From: Amycolatopsis sp. 195334CR
GTDB lineage: Bacteria; Actinomycetota; Actinomycetes; Mycobacteriales; Pseudonocardiaceae
Direction: 5' to 3'
Length of the DNA stretch: 64,000 bases
NCBI RefSeq assembly: GCF_017309385.1
Contig: NZ_JAFJMJ010000003.1
Span: forward strand, 1,054,001 to 1,118,000
The position numbers were made by a program, and so were the translations under genes. This document shows, one piece after another, positions 30,949-40,151 of this stretch. The notes beneath the pieces are model-generated. The model did no database searches and was not told the DNA's origin. It saw only the letters and a program-made list of their open reading frames with translations. Numbering within the stretch: the stretch's first letter is position 1; each line of letters starts with the position of its first letter.

Positions 30949-32283
30949 CTAGCGGCGCATGAAGGGCGGAACATCCACTTCGTCGTCGCTGGGGTCGTCG
31001 GTGACCGGCACCGGACGGCCCGGGGGCAGGTTGCCCTGGGTGCTCTGCGAGGTGGTGCGCGGCGTCGGGTAGCCGGGACGGCTCCCGCCCGGCTGCGGCA
31101 GGCCGCCGGAGATCGAGCCGGTGCCACCGCCGAAGCCGCCGCCGGTGATCCGCTCGCCGGTGGACCCGCCGACCGGCGACTGCGCGCGCTGTCCCGGCGT
31201 GGGCGTGCCCGGCCGCTGGGACGAGGTCGGCGGCAGCGCCCCGGCCCCGCCCGAACCACCGATCTGGCCGGCTTCGGCGGTCACCGTGCTGGTGCGCGAG
31301 CCGACCGCGGACGGGTCGAGCTTCTTGTGCGTCGGCGCGCCGGCGTCGAACCCGGCCGCGATCACGGTGACCCTGACCTCGTCGCCGAGCGAGTCGTCGA
31401 TGATCGTGCCGAAGATGATGTTGGCGTCCGGGTGCGCGGACTCCTGGACCAGCGAGGCGGCCTCGTTGATCTCGAACAGGCCGAGGTCGGAGCCACCGGC
31501 GATGGACAGCAGGGCGCCGTGCGCCCCGTCCATCGAGGCCTCCAGCAGCGGTGAGTTGATCGCCTTCTCGGCGGCCTGCACCGCTCTTCCCTCCCCGCGC
31601 GCGCTCCCTATCCCCATCAGCGCGCTGCCCGCACCTGACATCACGCTCTTGACGTCGGCGAAGTCCAGGTTGATCAGCCCGGGCGTGGTGATCAGGTCGG
31701 TGATGCCCTGCACACCGGAGAGCAGCACCTCGTCAGCCGAGCGGAAGGCGTCCATCAGCGAGACGCCGATGTCGCCGAGCTGCAGCAGCCGGTCGTTGGG
31801 GATGACGATCAGCGTGTCGCACTCGTTGCGCAGCGCCTGGATGCCGTCCTCGGCCTGCTTGCCGCGGCGCTTGCCCTCGAAGGAGAACGGCCGGGTGACC
31901 ACGCCGATGGTCAGCGCGCCCAGCTTGCGCGCGATCTGCGCCACCACGGGCGCGCCACCGGTGCCGGTGCCGCCGCCCTCGCCCGCGGTCACGAACACCA
32001 TGTCGGCGCCCTTGATGACCTCTTCGATCTCCTCGCGGTGGTCCTCGGCGGCGCGCTGGCCGACCTCCGGGGCGGCCCCGGCGCCGAGGCCGCGGGTGAG
32101 TTCGCGGCCGATGTCGAGCTTGACGTCGGCATCGGACATGAGCAGCGCCTGCGCGTCGGTGTTCACCGCGATGAACTCGACACCCTTGAGGCCGACCTCG
32201 ATCATCCGGTTCACGGCGTTGACGCCGCCGCCACCGATGCCGACGACCTTGATCACCGCGAGGTAGTTGTGCGGGGGCGTCAT
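30949..32283 (-). CDS. ftsZ: cell division protein FtsZ
   Basis: The 444-residue tubulin homologue has GGGTGTG at residues 103-109, the T7 loop region [13 protein letters not shown], and a 120-residue variable Gly/Pro/Ser/Thr-rich linker. It ends in the conserved DVPPFMRR peptide that binds SepF and FtsW. ATG 32283 begins [20 protein letters not shown], the standard actinobacterial start. Its own promoter lies 85-113 bp upstream, important because ftsQ is not adjacent here. Confidence 0.97.
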
Positions 32284-32367: not shown

Positions 32368-32396
32368 CCTCTAGTCGAGGCTTAGAGTTATGTCAA
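32368..32396 (-). promoter_or_regulatory. predicted ftsZ promoter with palindromic -10 region
   Basis: TTGACA at 32396-32391 and TAGAGG at 32373-32368 are 17 bp apart. The -10 is enclosed by the inverted repeat CCTCGAC (32362-32368) / GTCGAGG (32374-32380). The block TTGACATAACTCTAAGCCTCGA looks like the conserved ftsZ promoter that I recall from other actinomycetes. The rest of 32284-32503 shows no gene. Confidence 0.7.
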
Positions 32397-32503: not shown

Positions 32504-33265
32504 TCAAGCCGCCATTGAGATGGTCAGCAGGGGGGCGGAAGTCGGTGCCGGTGAACCACCGCGCGGCTCCACCGTGACGCCGATCCTGGCCACCCCGGCC
32601 AGGCCCTGTGCGGTGAGTACCGACCCCGGGTCCGGGCCACCCGGCACCAGCCCCATCGACCGCACGCCGCCGTCGTCGTGCATCAGCCAGACCTGGTACT
32701 CCTGGTCCGACGGCCGCGCGGGCAGGTTCGTCGCCATGAACGCCGCCTTGTCCAGGCTGGGCGACATGACCACGGTGCCGTGACCGCCCGGGTCGTGCAC
32801 GGTCACCACGTCCGGGGAGGCGATCAGCTCCCCCATCGGCGCGTACTTCGCCCGCGCCTCGGCCGCCTGCTGGCGCGCGGCGTCCAGTTCCCCCTGCGTG
32901 TGCAGGGCGAGACCACCGAAAACGCCGCCGAGCGCGAGGCCGACCACCGCCGCGGCGGCCGCGATGAACACCATCCAGCGCGGCGCTCCCCCGCCGCGCC
33001 GGGACCGGCCGCCCCGGTCACCACCGGCGGACGGCGGTTCCTGGCGGGTGGCCCGCACCGCGGCCAGCACCTGCGCCTTCATCGCCTCGGGCGGGTCCTC
33101 CGCCACCGCGGCACCCAGTCGCGCCGCGGTCGCCCGCAGCTCGCGCACCTCCTGGGCGCAGGACGGGCATTCGGCGAGGTGCCGCCCGAACCGTTCGCGT
33201 TCCAGGTCGTCCAGCGCGTCGAGCGCGTAGGCCCCGGCCAGCGTGTGCATGTCCGGCGAGGTCAT
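32504..33265 (-). CDS. rskA: anti-sigma-K factor RskA family protein
   Basis: The 253-residue protein has a cytoplasmic anti-sigma domain (HTLAGAYALDALDDLERERFGRHLAECPSCAQEVREL, a H-x3-C-x2-C zinc-type arrangement), one membrane helix near residues 100-125 and an extracytoplasmic RskA domain with EYQVWLMHDDG. It should hold SigK at the membrane until regulated proteolysis. Its ATG overlaps the sigK stop (ATGA), giving matched synthesis of the pair. The gene order sigK-rskA is as in Mycobacterium tuberculosis. Confidence 0.92.
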   Translation of the reverse strand: MTSPDMHTLAGAYALDALDDLERERFGRHLAECPSCAQEVRELRATAARLGAAVAEDPPEAMKAQVLAAVRATRQEPPSAGGDRGGRSRRGGGAPRWMVFIAAAAAVVGLALGGVFGGLALHTQGELDAARQQAAEARAKYAPMGELIASPDVVTVHDPGGHGTVVMSPSLDKAAFMATNLPARPSDQEYQVWLMHDDGGVRSMGLVPGGPDPGSVLTAQGLAGVARIGVTVEPRGGSPAPTSAPLLTISMAA

Positions 33266-33873
33266 GCGGTCACCCCCAAGCAGTCCCGCAGCCGGATCAG
33301 CCCGTCGCGGAGCCTCGTCTTCACCGTGCCCTGCGGGGTGGACAGCACTTCGGCCACCTCGCGGTAGGTATAGCCCTGGTAGTACGCGAGGAGCACGGAC
33401 TCGCGCTGCAGTTCGGTCAGGTTGCCAAGGCAGCGGCGCACCTGCTGGCGCTCCCAGCGGGCGGTGACCGATTCGGCCACCTCGTCGAACGGGCGGTTCC
33501 TGCTCGCCTCGAAAGTGGCCTTGACCTCGCGATCGGTGCTCGCCCTGGCGGAGCGCACGCGGTCGACCGCCCGGCGGTGCGCCAGGGTCAGCGCCCAGTT
33601 CAGCGCGCTGCCGCGCTCCGGCGAGTACCGCGGCGCGGTGCGCCACAGCTCGACCAGCACCTCCTGGGCCACCTCCTCGGACTGCGCGCCGTCGCGCACC
33701 ACCCGGCGGACCAGGCCGAGGATGGGGCCGGCGAGCCGGTCGTAGACCTGCTCGAACGCGCGCTCGTCCCCCTTGGCCACCTGGACCAGCAGGTCCTCGG
33801 TGGTCGGCCCGTCCCCGTCGCCGGTGACCGGCCGGAGTGGCTCGCCGGGCTGGCGAGGTGCCGTCTCATCCAT
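33262..33873 (-). CDS. sigK: ECF RNA polymerase sigma factor SigK
   Basis: The 203-residue protein has region 2 (FEQVYDRLAGPILGLVRRVVRDG..QSEEVAQEVLVELW) and region 4 (LTELQRESVLLAYYQGYTYREVAEVLSTPQGTVKTRL) of ECF factors. SigK identity rests on the pairing with RskA and on the DUF1365, FAD oxidoreductase, cyclopropane synthase and DUF1295 partners, the same set as the M. tuberculosis sigK locus. The start overlaps the DUF1365 gene by 8 bp, so it is transcribed from the promoter upstream of the oxidoreductase. Confidence 0.92.
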   Translation of the reverse strand: MDETAPRQPGEPLRPVTGDGDGPTTEDLLVQVAKGDERAFEQVYDRLAGPILGLVRRVVRDGAQSEEVAQEVLVELWRTAPRYSPERGSALNWALTLAHRRAVDRVRSARASTDREVKATFEASRNRPFDEVAESVTARWERQQVRRCLGNLTELQRESVLLAYYQGYTYREVAEVLSTPQGTVKTRLRDGLIRLRDCLGVTA

Positions 33874-34597
33874 TGAGTCCTCCGAGTCGGTCGGCCGGGG
33901 TGACCTTCGGCATCGGCGCGCGGCGGAGCCACAGCGCCACGCCGTGCTTGCGGATCAGCGCGGTCACGCGCTGCGGGACGAACGGCCGGGCCAGCAGCAT
34001 ACGGACCAGGTCCCGGGTACCGGCGGCACGACGCACCCCCTGGAGGGTGGCGGCCAGCGGGGTCGCGCCCGCCTGGTGCAGCACCACCGAGACGGACAGC
34101 AGCGAGTCCGGTTCGGGCACGCTCATCCGGTACTCGCCGTCACCCGTCTGGAACGGCGAAACGTAGAACTCCTTCGCCGCGCTCGCCCGGCCCCGGGCGT
34201 CCGGGTGCAGCAGGTAGGCGTGCCGGCCGCGGTAGGTGTTGTGCACCTCGGCGACCACGCAGGCCAGTTCCCCGTCCGGCCGGTGGCACCAGTACAGCGT
34301 GATCGGGTTGAACACGTACCCGAGCACGCGCGCGCTGGCCAGCATGACCACCCGGCCGCCGTGCAGGTCGACGCCCCGCTCGGCCAGCCACGCGTCGAGC
34401 TTTTCGCGAATCGTGCCGGGCTCCCCCGGTGCGAAGTGGTCGCGGCCGTCGAACCGGGCGAACGGCCGCAGCCAGCGCGGCAGGCTCGGGGGTCTTTCGA
34501 GATCGACCAGCCACAGGTACATCCGGTGCGCGAAGGTCAGCGGCGGGTCGATCCGCCGCACGTGCGCCACCGTGGCGTCGTAGAGCGCGGCGGTCAC
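33866..34597 (-). CDS. DUF1365 family protein of the SigK operon
   Basis: The 243-residue protein matches DUF1365: VRRIDPPLTFAHRMYLWLVDL, then ASARVLGYVFNPITLYWCHRPDG and EVHNTYRGRHAYLL, and KEFYVSPFQTGDGEYRM. The GTG start overlaps the oxidoreductase stop (GTGA). Homologues sit beside FAD oxidoreductases and cyclopropane synthases across bacteria and are implicated in fatty-acid modification; the reaction is not established. Confidence 0.9.
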   Translation of the reverse strand: MTAALYDATVAHVRRIDPPLTFAHRMYLWLVDLERPPSLPRWLRPFARFDGRDHFAPGEPGTIREKLDAWLAERGVDLHGGRVVMLASARVLGYVFNPITLYWCHRPDGELACVVAEVHNTYRGRHAYLLHPDARGRASAAKEFYVSPFQTGDGEYRMSVPEPDSLLSVSVVLHQAGATPLAATLQGVRRAAGTRDLVRMLLARPFVPQRVTALIRKHGVALWLRRAPMPKVTPADRLGGLNG

Positions 34598-35868
34598 CAG
34601 CGCACCCCCAGCGATTCGGCGGCACGCGCGCCGGCGGCGCAGCCGTCCTCGTGGAAACCCCAGCCGTGGTAGGCCCCGGCGTAGGCGACCACGCCGTCGT
34701 TCAGCTCGGGCAGGCGGCGCTGCGCGGCGACCGACTCCGGCGTGTAGATCGGGTGCTCGTAGGTCATCCGCGCGAGCACGTCCGACTCGGCGATCTCGGC
34801 CGACGGGTTCAGCGTGACCACGTAGCCCTTCGGTTCGTCCAGGCGCATCAACCGGTTCATGTCGTAGCTGACCTGCACCGCGCCGTGGTCCGCGCCGCAG
34901 CTGGGCGCGGCGTAGTTCCACGACGCGCGGGCGCCCGTCGCGCGCGGCAGCACGCCCGGCCCGGTGTGTAGCCACGCCTCGTTGGTCGAGTAGCGGAACG
35001 CGCCGAGCACTTCGCGCTCCCGCTCGGTCGGCTGGTCGAGCAGGCCCAGCGCCTGGTCGGCGTGCGTGGCCACGACGACCTTGTCCACCCGGTGCACGCT
35101 GTCCGCGTCGTCGCGCAGCTCGATCCCGGCCGCGGTCCGGCGCAGCGACCGGATCGGCGTGGACAGGTGGACCGCGGTCAGCTGCTTCACCGCGAGGTCG
35201 ACGTACTCGCGGGAGCCGCCGGTGACCGTGCGCCAGACCGGCGAGCCGGAGACCGAGAGCATGCCGTGGTTGCGCAGGAAGGCGAACAGGTACGGCGCCG
35301 GGTAACGCAGGGTTTCGGTGCGGTCGGCGGACCACACGGTGGACACCAGCGGCAGCATGAAGTGGTCCACGAAGTAGCGCGAGTACCCGCCGATGGCGAG
35401 GAAGGCGCCGATCGTGACGTCTCCGGCGTCCGGCGAGCGCAGCACCCGCGCGGCGTGCCGGTGGAACCGCTTGACCTCGGCCAGCATCCGCAGGTAGCGC
35501 GGGCTGCGCAGGTTCCGCCGCTGCGCGAACAACCCGGGCAGGCCCTTCGCGCCGGCGTATTCGAGGCCGCAGCCGTCGCACCGGATGCTCATCGACATCT
35601 CGGTCTCCTGCGTGCGCACGCCCAGCTCGCCGAACAGCTTCAGCAGCGTCGGGTAGGTGCGCTCGTTGTGCACGATGAAGCCGGAGTCGACCCCGATCGT
35701 GCCGTGCGCGCCCGCGACGTCGTGGGTGTGCGCGTGGCCGCCGAGCCGTTCGTCGGACTCGAACAGCAGCACGTCGTAGCGGCGTTGCAACAGGTAGGCG
35801 GCGGTCAGCCCGGCCACGCCGCTGCCGATGACGGCGACTCGTTCTCCAGTGATCTGCACGCCGGTCAT
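34594..35868 (-). CDS. NAD(P)/FAD-dependent oxidoreductase (amine-oxidase-like) of the SigK operon
   Basis: The 424-residue flavoprotein has the dinucleotide-binding motif VAVIGSGVAGLTAAYLL at residues 10-26, an acidic end of strand 2 (LFESDERLGGHAHT) and a C-terminal flavin motif AGAYHGWGFHEDGC. It resembles Rv0449c. The ATG at 35868 lies inside the predicted -10 hexamer, so the functional start may be the GTG at 35859, exactly 7 nt after that hexamer, making a leaderless mRNA. With the cyclopropane synthase and DUF1365 it likely desaturates or otherwise modifies membrane acyl chains. Confidence 0.9.
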   Translation of the reverse strand: MTGVQITGERVAVIGSGVAGLTAAYLLQRRYDVLLFESDERLGGHAHTHDVAGAHGTIGVDSGFIVHNERTYPTLLKLFGELGVRTQETEMSMSIRCDGCGLEYAGAKGLPGLFAQRRNLRSPRYLRMLAEVKRFHRHAARVLRSPDAGDVTIGAFLAIGGYSRYFVDHFMLPLVSTVWSADRTETLRYPAPYLFAFLRNHGMLSVSGSPVWRTVTGGSREYVDLAVKQLTAVHLSTPIRSLRRTAAGIELRDDADSVHRVDKVVVATHADQALGLLDQPTEREREVLGAFRYSTNEAWLHTGPGVLPRATGARASWNYAAPSCGADHGAVQVSYDMNRLMRLDEPKGYVVTLNPSAEIAESDVLARMTYEHPIYTPESVAAQRRLPELNDGVVAYAGAYHGWGFHEDGCAAGARAAESLGVRW

Positions 35869-35893
35869 TCGGTGCGCGTGCCGCGGTGGATGG
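35867..35893 (-). promoter_or_regulatory. SigK-like promoter of the oxidoreductase-DUF1365-sigK-rskA operon
   Basis: CCATCC at 35893-35888 and CCGAAT at 35872-35867 are separated by 15 bp. The hexamers match the SigK recognition elements that I recall from mycobacteria. The predicted start point coincides with GTG 35859, implying a leaderless transcript. sigK would activate its own operon. Confidence 0.7.
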
Positions 35894-35897
35894 GTAC

Positions 35898-35924
35898 CAA
35901 TCCACGACGGCCGCGGCGCCGAAC
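35898..35924 (+). promoter_or_regulatory. SigK-like promoter of the cyclopropane synthase operon
   Basis: CAATCC at 35898-35903 and CCGAAC at 35919-35924, again 15 bp apart, each differ by one base from the minus-strand pair. Seven bases later the ATG at 35932 begins, so this transcript too is predicted to be leaderless. Only 4 bp separate this -35 from the one on the other strand. Confidence 0.65.
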
Positions 35925-35931
35925 CACGGGT

Positions 35932-37194
35932 ATGCCGAAGATCGCCGACCGCATCGCCGGGTTTGCACAGGACCTGCTGGGGGCGCCGCTGCCGGTGGGC
36001 ATCCGCGCCTGGGACGGCTCGCGGGCCGGGCCGCCGGGCGTCACCGTGGTGCTGAACTCGCGGCGGGCGCTGCGGCGGCTGCTCTACGCGCCCGGTGAGC
36101 TCGGGCTGGCGCGCGCGTACGTCACCGGAGATCTCGACGTGGAGGGCGATCTCGCCGAGGGCTTCCGCCGGATCTGGGCGCTGACCAGGTCGGGCGCGGT
36201 GCGGCGGGTGCGACCGGGGCCCGCCGACCGGGCCAGGGCGGTCGGGCTCGCGGTGCGCCTCGGCGTCATCGGACCGCCGCCCAAACCGCCCGCCGAGGAG
36301 GCGCGGCTGACCGGCAAGCTGCACACACCGCTGCGCGACCGGTCCGCCATCGCCCACCACTACGACCTCGGCAACGCCTTCTACCAGCTGCTGCTCGACG
36401 AATCGATGGCCTATTCGAGCGCGTACTGGACCGACGACCGCCCCGGGTACGACCTGGCGCAGGCGCAACGGGACAAGCTCGACCTGATCTGCCACAAGCT
36501 CGGGCTGCGGCCCGGCATGCGCCTGCTGGACGTCGGCTGCGGCTGGGGCTCGCTGCTGGTCCACGCGGCCAAGCACTACGGCGTGCACGCGGTGGGCGTG
36601 ACGCTGTCCGCCGAGCAGGCCGAGCACGTGCGCGGCCGGGTGGGTTCTCACGATCTGGATGACCGCGTCGAGGTCCGGCGACAGGATTACCGCGACCTGG
36701 CCGACGAGCCGTTCGACGCGGTGGCCTCGGTCGAGATGGGCGAGCACGTCGGCGAGGCGAACTACCCGCGCTACACCGACACCCTGTTCCGCCTGCTCAA
36801 ACCGCGGGGACGGCTGGTGCTGCAGCAGATGTCACGGGGTGCGGTGGCCCCCGGCGGCGGGGCGTTCATCGAGCGCTACATCGCCCCCGACATGACCATG
36901 CGCCCGCTCTCGCGCACGCTGGGCCATCTGGAGGTTTCCGGCTTCGAGATTCGCGACGTGCACGCGTTGCGGGAACACTACGTGTGGACCGTGCGTGCTT
37001 GGACGGACACGCTCGAGTCACGGTGGGACGACGTGGTCGCGCTGATCGGCGAGGCGGGGGCGCGGGTGTGGCGCCTCTACCTGGTGGGCGGCGCGCTGGC
37101 CTTCGAGGAGAACCGCATGGGAGTCGACCAGGTGCTGGCGGTACGACCGGGTGAAGCCGGGGAGAGCGGACTTCCGGCCACCCGCGAGCGATGA
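35932..37194 (+). CDS. cyclopropane-fatty-acyl-phospholipid synthase family protein (UfaA1-like)
   Basis: The 420-residue SAM-dependent methyltransferase has an N-terminal CFA extension (VTVVLNSRRALRRLLYAPGELGLARAYVTGDLDVEGDL), the segment HYDLGNAFYQLLLDESMAYSSAYW, and the SAM-binding motif LLDVGCGWGSLLVHAAKHYG. EMGEHVGEANY is the usual active-site region, although the Glu-His-Val-Gly context should be checked. It would methylenate or methylate unsaturated acyl chains in phospholipid. It is the counterpart of M. tuberculosis ufaA1 in the SigK locus, but here it is divergent from sigK. Confidence 0.92.
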   Translation: MPKIADRIAGFAQDLLGAPLPVGIRAWDGSRAGPPGVTVVLNSRRALRRLLYAPGELGLARAYVTGDLDVEGDLAEGFRRIWALTRSGAVRRVRPGPADRARAVGLAVRLGVIGPPPKPPAEEARLTGKLHTPLRDRSAIAHHYDLGNAFYQLLLDESMAYSSAYWTDDRPGYDLAQAQRDKLDLICHKLGLRPGMRLLDVGCGWGSLLVHAAKHYGVHAVGVTLSAEQAEHVRGRVGSHDLDDRVEVRRQDYRDLADEPFDAVASVEMGEHVGEANYPRYTDTLFRLLKPRGRLVLQQMSRGAVAPGGGAFIERYIAPDMTMRPLSRTLGHLEVSGFEIRDVHALREHYVWTVRAWTDTLESRWDDVVALIGEAGARVWRLYLVGGALAFEENRMGVDQVLAVRPGEAGESGLPATRER

Positions 37195-37988
37195 ACCTGC
37201 TGATCAGCGCCGCCGTGGCGCTCGGCATCGCGCTGGTGGCGGTCTGCGCCACCTTCGCGATCGCGCTGGCCAGGCGGCGGTACGACACCATCGACACCTT
37301 CTGGGGACTGGGGTTCGCGCTGGTCGCGCTGGTGGCCTTCCCGTACGGCACCGGGGACCTGGCGCTGCGCGTGGTGGTCACCGCGCTGACCGTGGTCTGG
37401 GGCGTGCGGCTGGCGGTCCACCTGCACCTGCGCAACCACAAGCTGCCCGAGGACCCGCGGTACGCCCGTATGGTCGAGCGCGCCGGTGACCGGGCGCGCT
37501 CGCGCATCTTCGTGCGCGTCTACCTGCTGCAGGCGCTGGTGCTGTGGTTCGTCTCGCTGCCGGTGCTGGCCGCCCAGCACGGGACCGGGATCGGCGTGCT
37601 GGGGTGGCTGGGCCTCGCGGTCTGGCTGGTCGGGTTCGGCTTCGAGACCATCGGCGACGAGCAGCTGCGGCGGTTCAAGGCGGACCCGGCCAACCGCGGC
37701 CGGGTGCTGGACACCGGGCTGTGGCGGTACACGCGGCACCCCAACTACTTCGGTGACGCCTGCGTCTGGTGGGGGTTCTACCTGCTGGCGTGCACCACCT
37801 GGCCGGGCGCGGCCACCGTGCTCTCGCCGCTGGTGATGACCTTCACCCTGGCCAAGGGCACCGGGAAACCGTTGCTGGAGAAGGGGCTCCACCGCAGCAG
37901 GCCGGGTTACGCCTACTACGTCGAGCGCACCAGCGGGTTCTTCCCGCTGCCGCCGCGGCGGACTACTCCCCGGTCTGCCCGTCGGTGA
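37191..37988 (+). CDS. DUF1295 integral membrane protein of the SigK locus
   Basis: The 265-residue protein has about seven membrane helices and the DUF1295 signature GLWRYTRHPNYFGDACVWWGFYL, shared with steroid 5-alpha-reductase and isoprenylcysteine methyltransferase folds. Its ATG overlaps the cyclopropane synthase stop (ATGA). It matches Rv0446c in position and type. A role in reducing or methylating lipid intermediates is inferred. The 3' end overlaps the convergent DinB gene by 26 bp. Confidence 0.9.
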   Translation: MNLLISAAVALGIALVAVCATFAIALARRRYDTIDTFWGLGFALVALVAFPYGTGDLALRVVVTALTVVWGVRLAVHLHLRNHKLPEDPRYARMVERAGDRARSRIFVRVYLLQALVLWFVSLPVLAAQHGTGIGVLGWLGLAVWLVGFGFETIGDEQLRRFKADPANRGRVLDTGLWRYTRHPNYFGDACVWWGFYLLACTTWPGAATVLSPLVMTFTLAKGTGKPLLEKGLHRSRPGYAYYVERTSGFFPLPPRRTTPRSARR

Positions 37989-39344: not shown

Positions 39345-40151
39345 TCAGGAAACCGTGGGCAGTTCCGGGCTCGACACGTCGTAGACCTTGCCCGGCTGGG
39401 TGAGCAGCGCGGCGAGCACCTTGGTCTTGCGGTCCAGCTGGTCGGCGTCGCCCCAGCGGATCTGCCTGCCGTCGTTGAGGTCCAGCCGGACGCTGCCCGG
39501 TGAGTCGGCCCCGACCGCGGCGACCTGACCGCGCAGCTGGCCGGGCAGCGAGATCAGCACCGCGGTGGCCGCGCGGGTGGCCAGGTCGTCCGGGCCGACG
39601 CGCGCCAGCTTCAGCTCCGGGAGCCCGGCGGGCGCCACCGGCACCTTCTTGAACACGAACCCCGAATCGTCGACCAGGTGGATTTCCTGGCCGGTGTTGA
39701 AGAAGCCGATCGGGGTGCGTTCCGAGACGGCGATCTCGATGGTCGACGGCCACGAGCGCGAGACGTCCGCGGTGGCCACGCCCGGCAGGGTGAGCACCCG
39801 GTCGCGGATCTCGTCGGTGTCCACCCGCAGCATCGCGCGCCGGTCCGGCACGGCGGCGACCGCGCGGATCTGGTCGGGCGAGAGGCTGGTCGCACCGACC
39901 ACGTCCACCGTGCGCACGCCCAGCAGCGAAGTGAAGAAGATCAGGTACAGGCCGGCGACCACGCTCAGCGCGCTGAGGATCGCCACCCACCGGCGCTGCA
40001 TCGCCTTGCGCCGGCTCGGCCGGGTGCCGGTGCGCTGCCGCGCGCTCTCCGGGCGGCGGCCGCGCCGGCTGGCCGACGCCGACCGCGCCGGTCCGCGCTC
40101 CTCGCCCGGACCGCGCCGCCGTCGCTGCCTGGCTTCCCTGGCCGTGGTCAC
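39345..40151 (-). CDS. ftsQ: cell division protein FtsQ
   Basis: The 268-residue bitopic protein has a very basic 45-residue cytoplasmic N-terminus, one membrane helix (about 55-75), a POTRA domain (TSLLGVRTVDVVGATSLSPDQIRAVAAV) and the FtsQ domain. The GTG start lies 3 bp after murC. Normally ftsZ follows; here the SigK locus follows. Its mRNA would run head-on into the DUF6928-like gene. Confidence 0.94.
   Translation of the reverse strand: MTTAREARQRRRRGPGEERGPARSASASRRGRRPESARQRTGTRPSRRKAMQRRWVAILSALSVVAGLYLIFFTSLLGVRTVDVVGATSLSPDQIRAVAAVPDRRAMLRVDTDEIRDRVLTLPGVATADVSRSWPSTIEIAVSERTPIGFFNTGQEIHLVDDSGFVFKKVPVAPAGLPELKLARVGPDDLATRAATAVLISLPGQLRGQVAAVGADSPGSVRLDLNDGRQIRWGDADQLDRKTKVLAALLTQPGKVYDVSSPELPTVS

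Follow-up and report, generated by a model that had tools for sequence, protein, structure and literature searches.

Putative divergent SigK promoters with predicted leaderless starts in a likely lipid-modification gene cluster of Amycolatopsis sp. 195334CR

In Mycobacterium tuberculosis the gene for the extracytoplasmic function (ECF) sigma factor SigK is autoregulated from the Rv0449c promoter, and SigK sites are described as conserved in Actinobacteria in the parts of that report drawn on here (PMC7509140). Excerpts of two further reports state that a 5'-terminal ATG or GTG is both necessary and sufficient for translation in mycobacteria (PMC4633059), and that purines start 85% of M. tuberculosis transcripts, with C the most common base at -1 (PMC3898074). 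In Rhodobacter, according to passages of PMC7380195, furan fatty acids are the product of a methylase, a desaturase and a DUF1365 protein controlled by the ECF pair RpoE-ChrR. The locus considered here lies in a stretch of 64,000 nucleotides (nt) of Amycolatopsis sp. 195334CR (contig NZ_JAFJMJ010000003.1, positions 1,054,001 to 1,118,000), referred to as the window, in which an amine-oxidase-like flavoprotein gene heads an operon containing sigK and the anti-sigma factor gene rskA, and a methyltransferase gene heads a second operon in the opposite direction. Rv0449c is presumably this flavoprotein. The intergenic stretch 35860-35931 between the two divergent gene sets very probably holds divergent, autoregulated SigK promoters giving leaderless messenger RNAs (mRNAs) for both halves of one lipid-modification cluster.

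The C(C/A)ATCC and CCGAA(T/C) hexamers of SigK sites are present on both strands of this stretch, and the spacer between the -35 and -10 elements, read directly, is 15 base pairs (bp) on each (Table 1). The consensus letters were taken from an earlier reading of the same DNA, the original prediction, and agree with the sites of mycobacterial relatives. That reading had described twin divergent units of hexamers, 15-bp spacer, seven bases and start codon, ending at GTG 35859 on the minus strand and ATG 35932 on the plus strand, and this layout is exact on direct reading. The -35 elements do lie 4 bp apart and face away from each other, with GTAC between them, and the minus-strand -10 element does overlap the annotated start ATG 35868, with which the end of CCGAAT has two bases in common.

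The hexamers by themselves are poor evidence of a promoter. The pattern CMATCC-N15-CCGAAY has 9 sites in the 9.93-Mb genome, compared with 1 in a reversed-pattern control and about 4.3 expected from base composition, and spacers of 12 to 19 give 7, 4, 5, 9, 3, 6, 8 and 3 sites, respectively (45 rows; 11 in the control). The genome scan with spacers of 15 to 17 that accompanied the original prediction as a check thus returns 9, 3 and 6 sites, and the hexamer pair alone is not significant; its use as proof of a promoter was rejected. Four of the 9 sites precede sensible genes (flavoprotein, methyltransferase, molybdopterin oxidoreductase and fasciclin), and open frames of more than 150 codons run across the other five, with no gene start assignable. 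When seven bases and RTG (R, purine) are added to the hexamer pair, 0.11 sites are expected per genome and 3 are found, namely the two promoters described here and one before the molybdopterin oxidoreductase gene. Since the hexamer count is near expectation, it is the geometry and its conservation that carry the case, and judged from the sequences of relatives, conservation settles that the promoter pair is not due to chance.

A search with the flavoprotein found a match in 73 of 80 genomes of the genus, at 74 loci, all of which were examined. The promoter scan of these loci ran over spacers from 13 to 19, tolerated two mismatches at most, selected sites whether or not a start codon followed, and broke ties towards 15. 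On the flavoprotein side a spacer of 15 followed by seven bases and GTG is found in 73 of 74 loci; the locus having no site is a second flavoprotein copy in its genome, with no sigK beside it. A divergent methyltransferase gene is present at 69 loci, and 67 of these show the 15-bp spacer, seven bases and ATG. In a repeat scan with no tie-break, in which the start codon was likewise not required for the choice of site, the same geometry stays the best site in the same 73 and 67 loci, with one tie per side; the pattern C[ACG]ATC[CG]-N15-NCGAAN-N7-RTG used for the counts in Table 1 has the hexamer cores and the start codon built in. Immediately ahead of the start codon stands a pyrimidine in 140 of 140 cases, across 33 different 7-mers on the flavoprotein side and 24 on the methyltransferase side. 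Position 3 of this discriminator segment is nearly as strict, and the remaining positions are not. A concern that 15-bp spacing might be rare is answered by its being the best spacing in 73/74 and 67/69 genus loci and in 26/27 mycobacterial-type loci, and the spacer, the seven-base step, the GTG and ATG starts and the place of sigK-rskA in the minus-strand operon are all conserved as had been supposed.

The distance between the two promoters is variable. Thirteen of 67 genus loci have a 4-bp gap and the others one of 14 to 309 bp, such that each unit of -35, -10 and start codon is rigid while the DNA between the promoters drifts. This bears on an alternative in which the near-palindrome GGATGGGTACCAATCC, an inverted repeat of 16 bp whose halves differ at one pair in the window's genome, is the operator of a dimeric regulator and not a pair of -35 elements. 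The compact palindrome is possible only at the 4-bp gap; at all other gaps the halves move apart with spacer and discriminator lengths fixed, and single copies serve other genes. The operator was rejected because its half-sites drift apart when the gap changes, and it is regarded as highly improbable. The gaps were also examined for periodicity: with the 14 distinct values, a 10.5-bp period gives R = 0.46 (p ∼0.05, with uniform gaps as the null), with the 11 values no larger than 50 bp p is 0.22, and an event-count weighting of our own choosing gives p 0.0004. The largest out-of-phase class, a gap of 28 (16/67 loci), fits a single origin on the tree, and the 14 gap classes need 16 changes on the flavoprotein tree (66 of the 67 two-site loci; L118, which has a shortened gene, was left out). 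Helical phasing of the promoter gap is only a lead.

The position of the start codons relative to the promoters points to leaderless transcripts. The annotated in-frame start ATG 35868 is matched in only 19 of 73 genus loci and absent in 54, as opposed to a GTG in all 73 loci with a site; GTG 35859 is therefore preferred, and appears to be the better gene start, in support of the proposal that the annotated start is wrong. The ATG is most simply read as incidental to CCGAAT being followed by G. No Shine-Dalgarno-like 4-mer is present 4-10 nt before the ATG of the methyltransferase gene in any of 67 genus loci, nor before the GTG of the flavoprotein gene in 61 of 73. The pyrimidine-purine step at -1/+1 fits an initiator, given the preference of M. 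tuberculosis transcripts for a purine start and for C at -1.

Alternatively, the promoters might be real and the mRNAs leadered, with an upstream promoter making the main transcript or with translation starting from ATG 35868 or an upstream GTG. The in-frame ATG would allow this, as would the in-frame start codons found within 60 nt upstream in most relatives (52/73 on the flavoprotein side and 49/67 on the methyltransferase side). Against it stand the absence of ATG 35868 in the 54 relatives noted above, the invariant pyrimidine at -1, and the mycobacterial-type loci, in 21 of 27 of which the first in-frame start after the -10 element is at +7 and, in 17 of those 21, is the sole one listed. 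A simple scan found no sigma-70-like promoter in 35600-36200 and no terminator in the region, a weak argument in that the same scan misses a plausible promoter before ftsZ elsewhere in the window. Leadered transcription is considered quite improbable.

Several other observations, together with the upstream in-frame starts, weigh against leaderless SigK transcripts as the full account. In 12/73 flavoprotein loci (the window's locus is not among them) a sequence resembling AAGGA lies at Shine-Dalgarno distance and overlaps the -10 element at its end, and a cruder test covering all 20 nt upstream is positive at 35/67 methyltransferase loci, at larger distances. With a 6-nt discriminator, +1 would fall one base ahead of the start codon and the mRNA would have a 1-nt leader. 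Among 71 distinct flavoprotein rows, 24 have G at the last base of the -10 element and 19 have a base other than C at the first, both off consensus. The loci are related, and their counts are hence not independent. Finally, the fasciclin, ferritin-like and stand-alone sigK genes described below are leadered, most of them with Shine-Dalgarno-like sequences.

A mechanism may be outlined on this basis. SigK-RNA polymerase would recognize C(C/A)ATCC and NCGAAN, 15 bp apart, within a 73-bp region, and would start transcription at the eighth nucleotide beyond the -10 hexamer, where the purine of the pyrimidine-purine step is also the first base of the start codon. The minus-strand transcript would begin at GTG with no leader and encode the flavoprotein, the DUF1365 protein, SigK and RskA, and the plus-strand transcript would likewise begin at ATG and encode the methyltransferase and the DUF1295 protein. 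On release by RskA, SigK would raise expression of its own operon and, through the mirror promoter, of the partner enzymes. Given the footprint of RNA polymerase, two polymerases are unlikely to sit side by side with -35 elements 4 bp apart. At this gap they probably cannot be bound together and the two halves may fire alternately; the wider gaps of relatives could allow both.

Assignment of the promoters to SigK has one competitor, in which another ECF sigma factor of the genome reads them and SigK is merely a gene of the operon. A SigK query drew between 64 and 159 first-look candidates from each of 15 genomes, and many related sigma factors may exist. Nevertheless, where sigK heads its own unit, in five relatives, a looser motif, CNA(T/A)CC-N15-NCGAAN, stands directly before sigK, with a leader; these relatives are one genus genome with no flavoprotein gene and four genomes of two other genera (two each), and the count leaves out three further sigK homologues, in G085, G095 and G122. 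The motif is in line with the sites found in mycobacterial relatives, and the excerpts of PMC7509140 report conservation of SigK sites. A different ECF factor is accordingly thought unlikely. At two genus loci (L112 and L114, in G095 and G085) sigK-rskA and the methyltransferase gene are not at the locus; the flavoprotein gene keeps a SigK-type promoter, one of the two with a single -35 mismatch, and is still before ftsZ, and a SigK homologue of 64-65% identity is found elsewhere in each genome.

The start-codon distance was also tallied independently of the locus. An exact-motif scan of 30 genus genomes, recording ATG or GTG 3 to 11 nt behind the motif, gave 89 rows (3 in the reversed control). 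Keeping only the longer row where a site had two removed 8 rows before the tally and left 81 distinct sites, spread over 28 genomes. RTG is at distance 7 in 36 of 81 sites and at any other distance in at most 9. Eight sites have two RTGs, and counting the nearer one there raises distance 6 to 13; two sites (G098, G138) were tallied at distance 5 although a GTG is also present at 7. The distance-7 sites that were read with their locus precede flavoprotein (two decayed) and methyltransferase genes and two unrelated kinds of gene, for a molybdopterin oxidoreductase and an AhpC/TSA peroxiredoxin, and each frame opens exactly there. In the window's genome the molybdopterin oxidoreductase gene has an ATG at this distance, and CAATCC-N15-CCGAAT stands 48 or 57 nt before a fasciclin lipoprotein gene of the MPT70/MPT83 type; the two genes are in tandem, with SigK-type sites 1.6 kb apart (L010 8642-10979, equal to C3:788642-790979). 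A ferritin-like Tat-type protein gene in several relatives has a SigK-type site with a 45-nt leader. SigK-type promoters thus appear to make both leaderless and leadered messages. As a separate observation, the flavoprotein gene is decayed or shortened in L347, L349 and L350 (G127, G147 and G090), where the SigK-type promoter and the GTG at seven bases are kept and sigK is downstream.

Outside the genus, 165 genomes have a match to the flavoprotein. Sixty family loci, mostly top-ranked, were examined; the 15-bp spacer and seven bases with an in-frame start are found in 10 of these, and in the remaining 50 a site is either missing or weaker and at a different distance. The idea that the SigK site is a general feature of the flavoprotein gene was rejected on this count. 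Six of the ten family genomes with the motif were searched for a SigK homologue, and all six have one. Relatives beyond the family were represented by the best 80 of 577. Among these, 27 loci are from mycobacteria broadly defined (rows L206-L229, of which one carries only the label Actinomycetota, and L231, L232 and L268), and they show the 15-bp spacer with in-frame GTG at seven bases in 21/27, at eight in 5/27, and no site in 1/27; several of their -35 elements are one base off consensus. In the other 53 an in-frame ATG at seven is found in five, from Rhodococcus, Gordonia (spacer 16), Antrihabitans, Speluncibacter and, weakly, one Nocardia, and the remainder have no site, a weak site or a start elsewhere; the layout is lacking in the Streptomyces and Nocardioides loci and many of the Rhodococcus and Nocardia loci that were read. 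A phylum sample added three more loci with the seven-base step, in two families of the class. The layout is probably older than the genus.

The two operons are tightly organized (Table 1). In flavoprotein-DUF1365-sigK-rskA each minus-strand gene overlaps the next, and the promoter heads a unit that holds both sigK and rskA. Both conserved cysteine positions of SigK align with the SigK structure 4nqw_A, in keeping with the two cysteines described as conserved in the portions of PMC7509140 used here, and RpoE is the second best solved-structure match. The window's RskA keeps an HLAECPSC zinc-type motif, which the aligned RskA chain of 4nqw_B lacks, and its sensor domain may therefore work differently. 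Of the gene types in the furan-fatty-acid set, a DUF1365 gene and a CMAS-family methyltransferase gene, a candidate counterpart of the methylase, are present in the window; by analogy, the flavoprotein could be the desaturase of such a lipid pathway, and the gene products of both halves would fit one lipid-modification pathway.

Table 1. Promoter elements, start codons and genes of the divergent SigK cluster (coordinates in the window; E, expect value; FAD, flavin adenine dinucleotide).
Feature	Position	Strand	Basis
-35 element CCATCC	35893-35888	-	sequence; 73/74 genus loci fit C[ACG]ATC[CG]-N15-NCGAAN-N7-RTG
-10 element CCGAAT	35872-35867	-	sequence; same pattern fit in 73/74 genus loci
7-nt discriminator GACCGGC	35866-35860	-	last base pyrimidine in 73/73 genus loci with site
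GTG start codon and predicted +1 of leaderless mRNA	35857..35859	-	GTG here in 73/73 genus loci with site
Gap GTAC between the -35 elements, 4 bp	35894-35897	.	sequence
-35 element CAATCC	35898-35903	+	sequence; 67/69 genus loci fit C[ACG]ATC[CG]-N15-NCGAAN-N7-RTG
-10 element CCGAAC	35919-35924	+	sequence; same pattern fit in 67/69 genus loci
7-nt discriminator CACGGGT	35925-35931	+	last base pyrimidine in 67/67 genus loci with site
ATG start codon and predicted +1 of leaderless mRNA	35932..35934	+	ATG here in 67/67 genus loci with site
FAD-dependent amine-oxidase-like flavoprotein, first gene of minus operon (start revised to GTG 35859)	34594..35859	-	Pfam Amino_oxidase, E 3.2e-21
DUF1365 protein; overlaps stop of flavoprotein gene	33866..34597	-	Pfam PF07103, E 3.4e-61
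ECF sigma factor SigK	33262..33873	-	NCBIfam NF007228, 272.6 bits (cut-off 226); best solved structure 4nqw_A, E 1.4e-41
Anti-sigma factor RskA	32504..33265	-	Pfam RskA_C and RskA_N; weak match to 4nqw_B, E 0.00044
Cyclopropane-fatty-acid-synthase-like methyltransferase (CMAS family)	35932..37194	+	Pfam CMAS, E 1.2e-80
DUF1295 membrane protein; start overlaps methyltransferase stop	37191..37988	+	Pfam PF06966, E 3.9e-74

The whole SigK cluster lies between ftsQ (39345-40151) and ftsZ (30949-32283), both identified by Pfam on the minus strand. The SigK operon points into ftsZ, with no terminator between them by a simple scan, and in all 41 genus loci, of 74, that are long enough to show it, ftsZ lies 189-350 nt beyond rskA and is read from the same strand; two sister-genus loci likewise have ftsQ and ftsZ around the cluster. 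In the interval between rskA and ftsZ, TTGACA stands 17 bp before TAGAGG (32368-32396, minus strand), a possible housekeeping promoter of ftsZ that the consensus scan missed. A more ambitious proposal would combine these features: SigK would be hard-wired to leaderless translation through a fixed 8-nt step from -10 to start at the enzyme genes, in the genus, its family and mycobacteria, with exported products and stand-alone sigK leadered; the genus promoters would stand back to back at approximately whole helical turns (gaps 4, 14-15 and 25-26); and the operon running into ftsZ would tie envelope stress to cell division. As a whole this proposal is speculative and rather doubtful.

The divergent SigK arrangement makes a sharp prediction, that of two 5' ends, each on a start codon and both needing SigK. 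The promoter rule (15-bp spacer, seven bases, pyrimidine before ATG or GTG) can be used to correct gene starts in related actinobacterial genomes and to find further SigK targets, and the gaps of 4 to 309 bp provide a natural series for how two divergent polymerases share one site. The analogy with the RpoE-ChrR lipid genes also hints at a possible product of the SigK cluster.

SigK autoregulation and leaderless mRNAs are already known; the twin leaderless design and the strict start-codon geometry would be the new part. The literature searches made here recognized no description of leaderless SigK promoters or of this region, and a prior report may exist. The window resembles the M. tuberculosis Rv0449c SigK promoter in the autoregulation of sigK, predicted for the window, through the leading gene of the locus (passages of PMC7509140), and the mycobacterial relatives have the same flavoprotein gene type with the same motif class. 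In the mycobacterial loci that were read, however, the flavoprotein, DUF1365 and methyltransferase genes are co-directional, whereas in the window they form two divergent operons with mirror promoters 4 bp apart. The predicted transcripts share with mycobacterial leaderless mRNAs the +1 on the R of ATG or GTG, a C common at -1 and no need for a Shine-Dalgarno sequence, as set out in excerpts of PMC3898074 and PMC4633059; a term search of those partial texts finds no SigK, whereas in the window the geometry is fixed to the promoters of one sigma factor, on both sides. Rhodobacter sphaeroides RpoE-ChrR with UfaM, UfaD and UfaO is likewise an ECF/anti-sigma pair accompanied by a fatty-acyl methylase and a DUF1365 protein, in the sections of PMC7380195 drawn on here. 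The two systems differ in that the anti-sigma factor is of the RskA family in the window and is ChrR in R. sphaeroides, and the lipid role of the window's cluster is a prediction from its genes.

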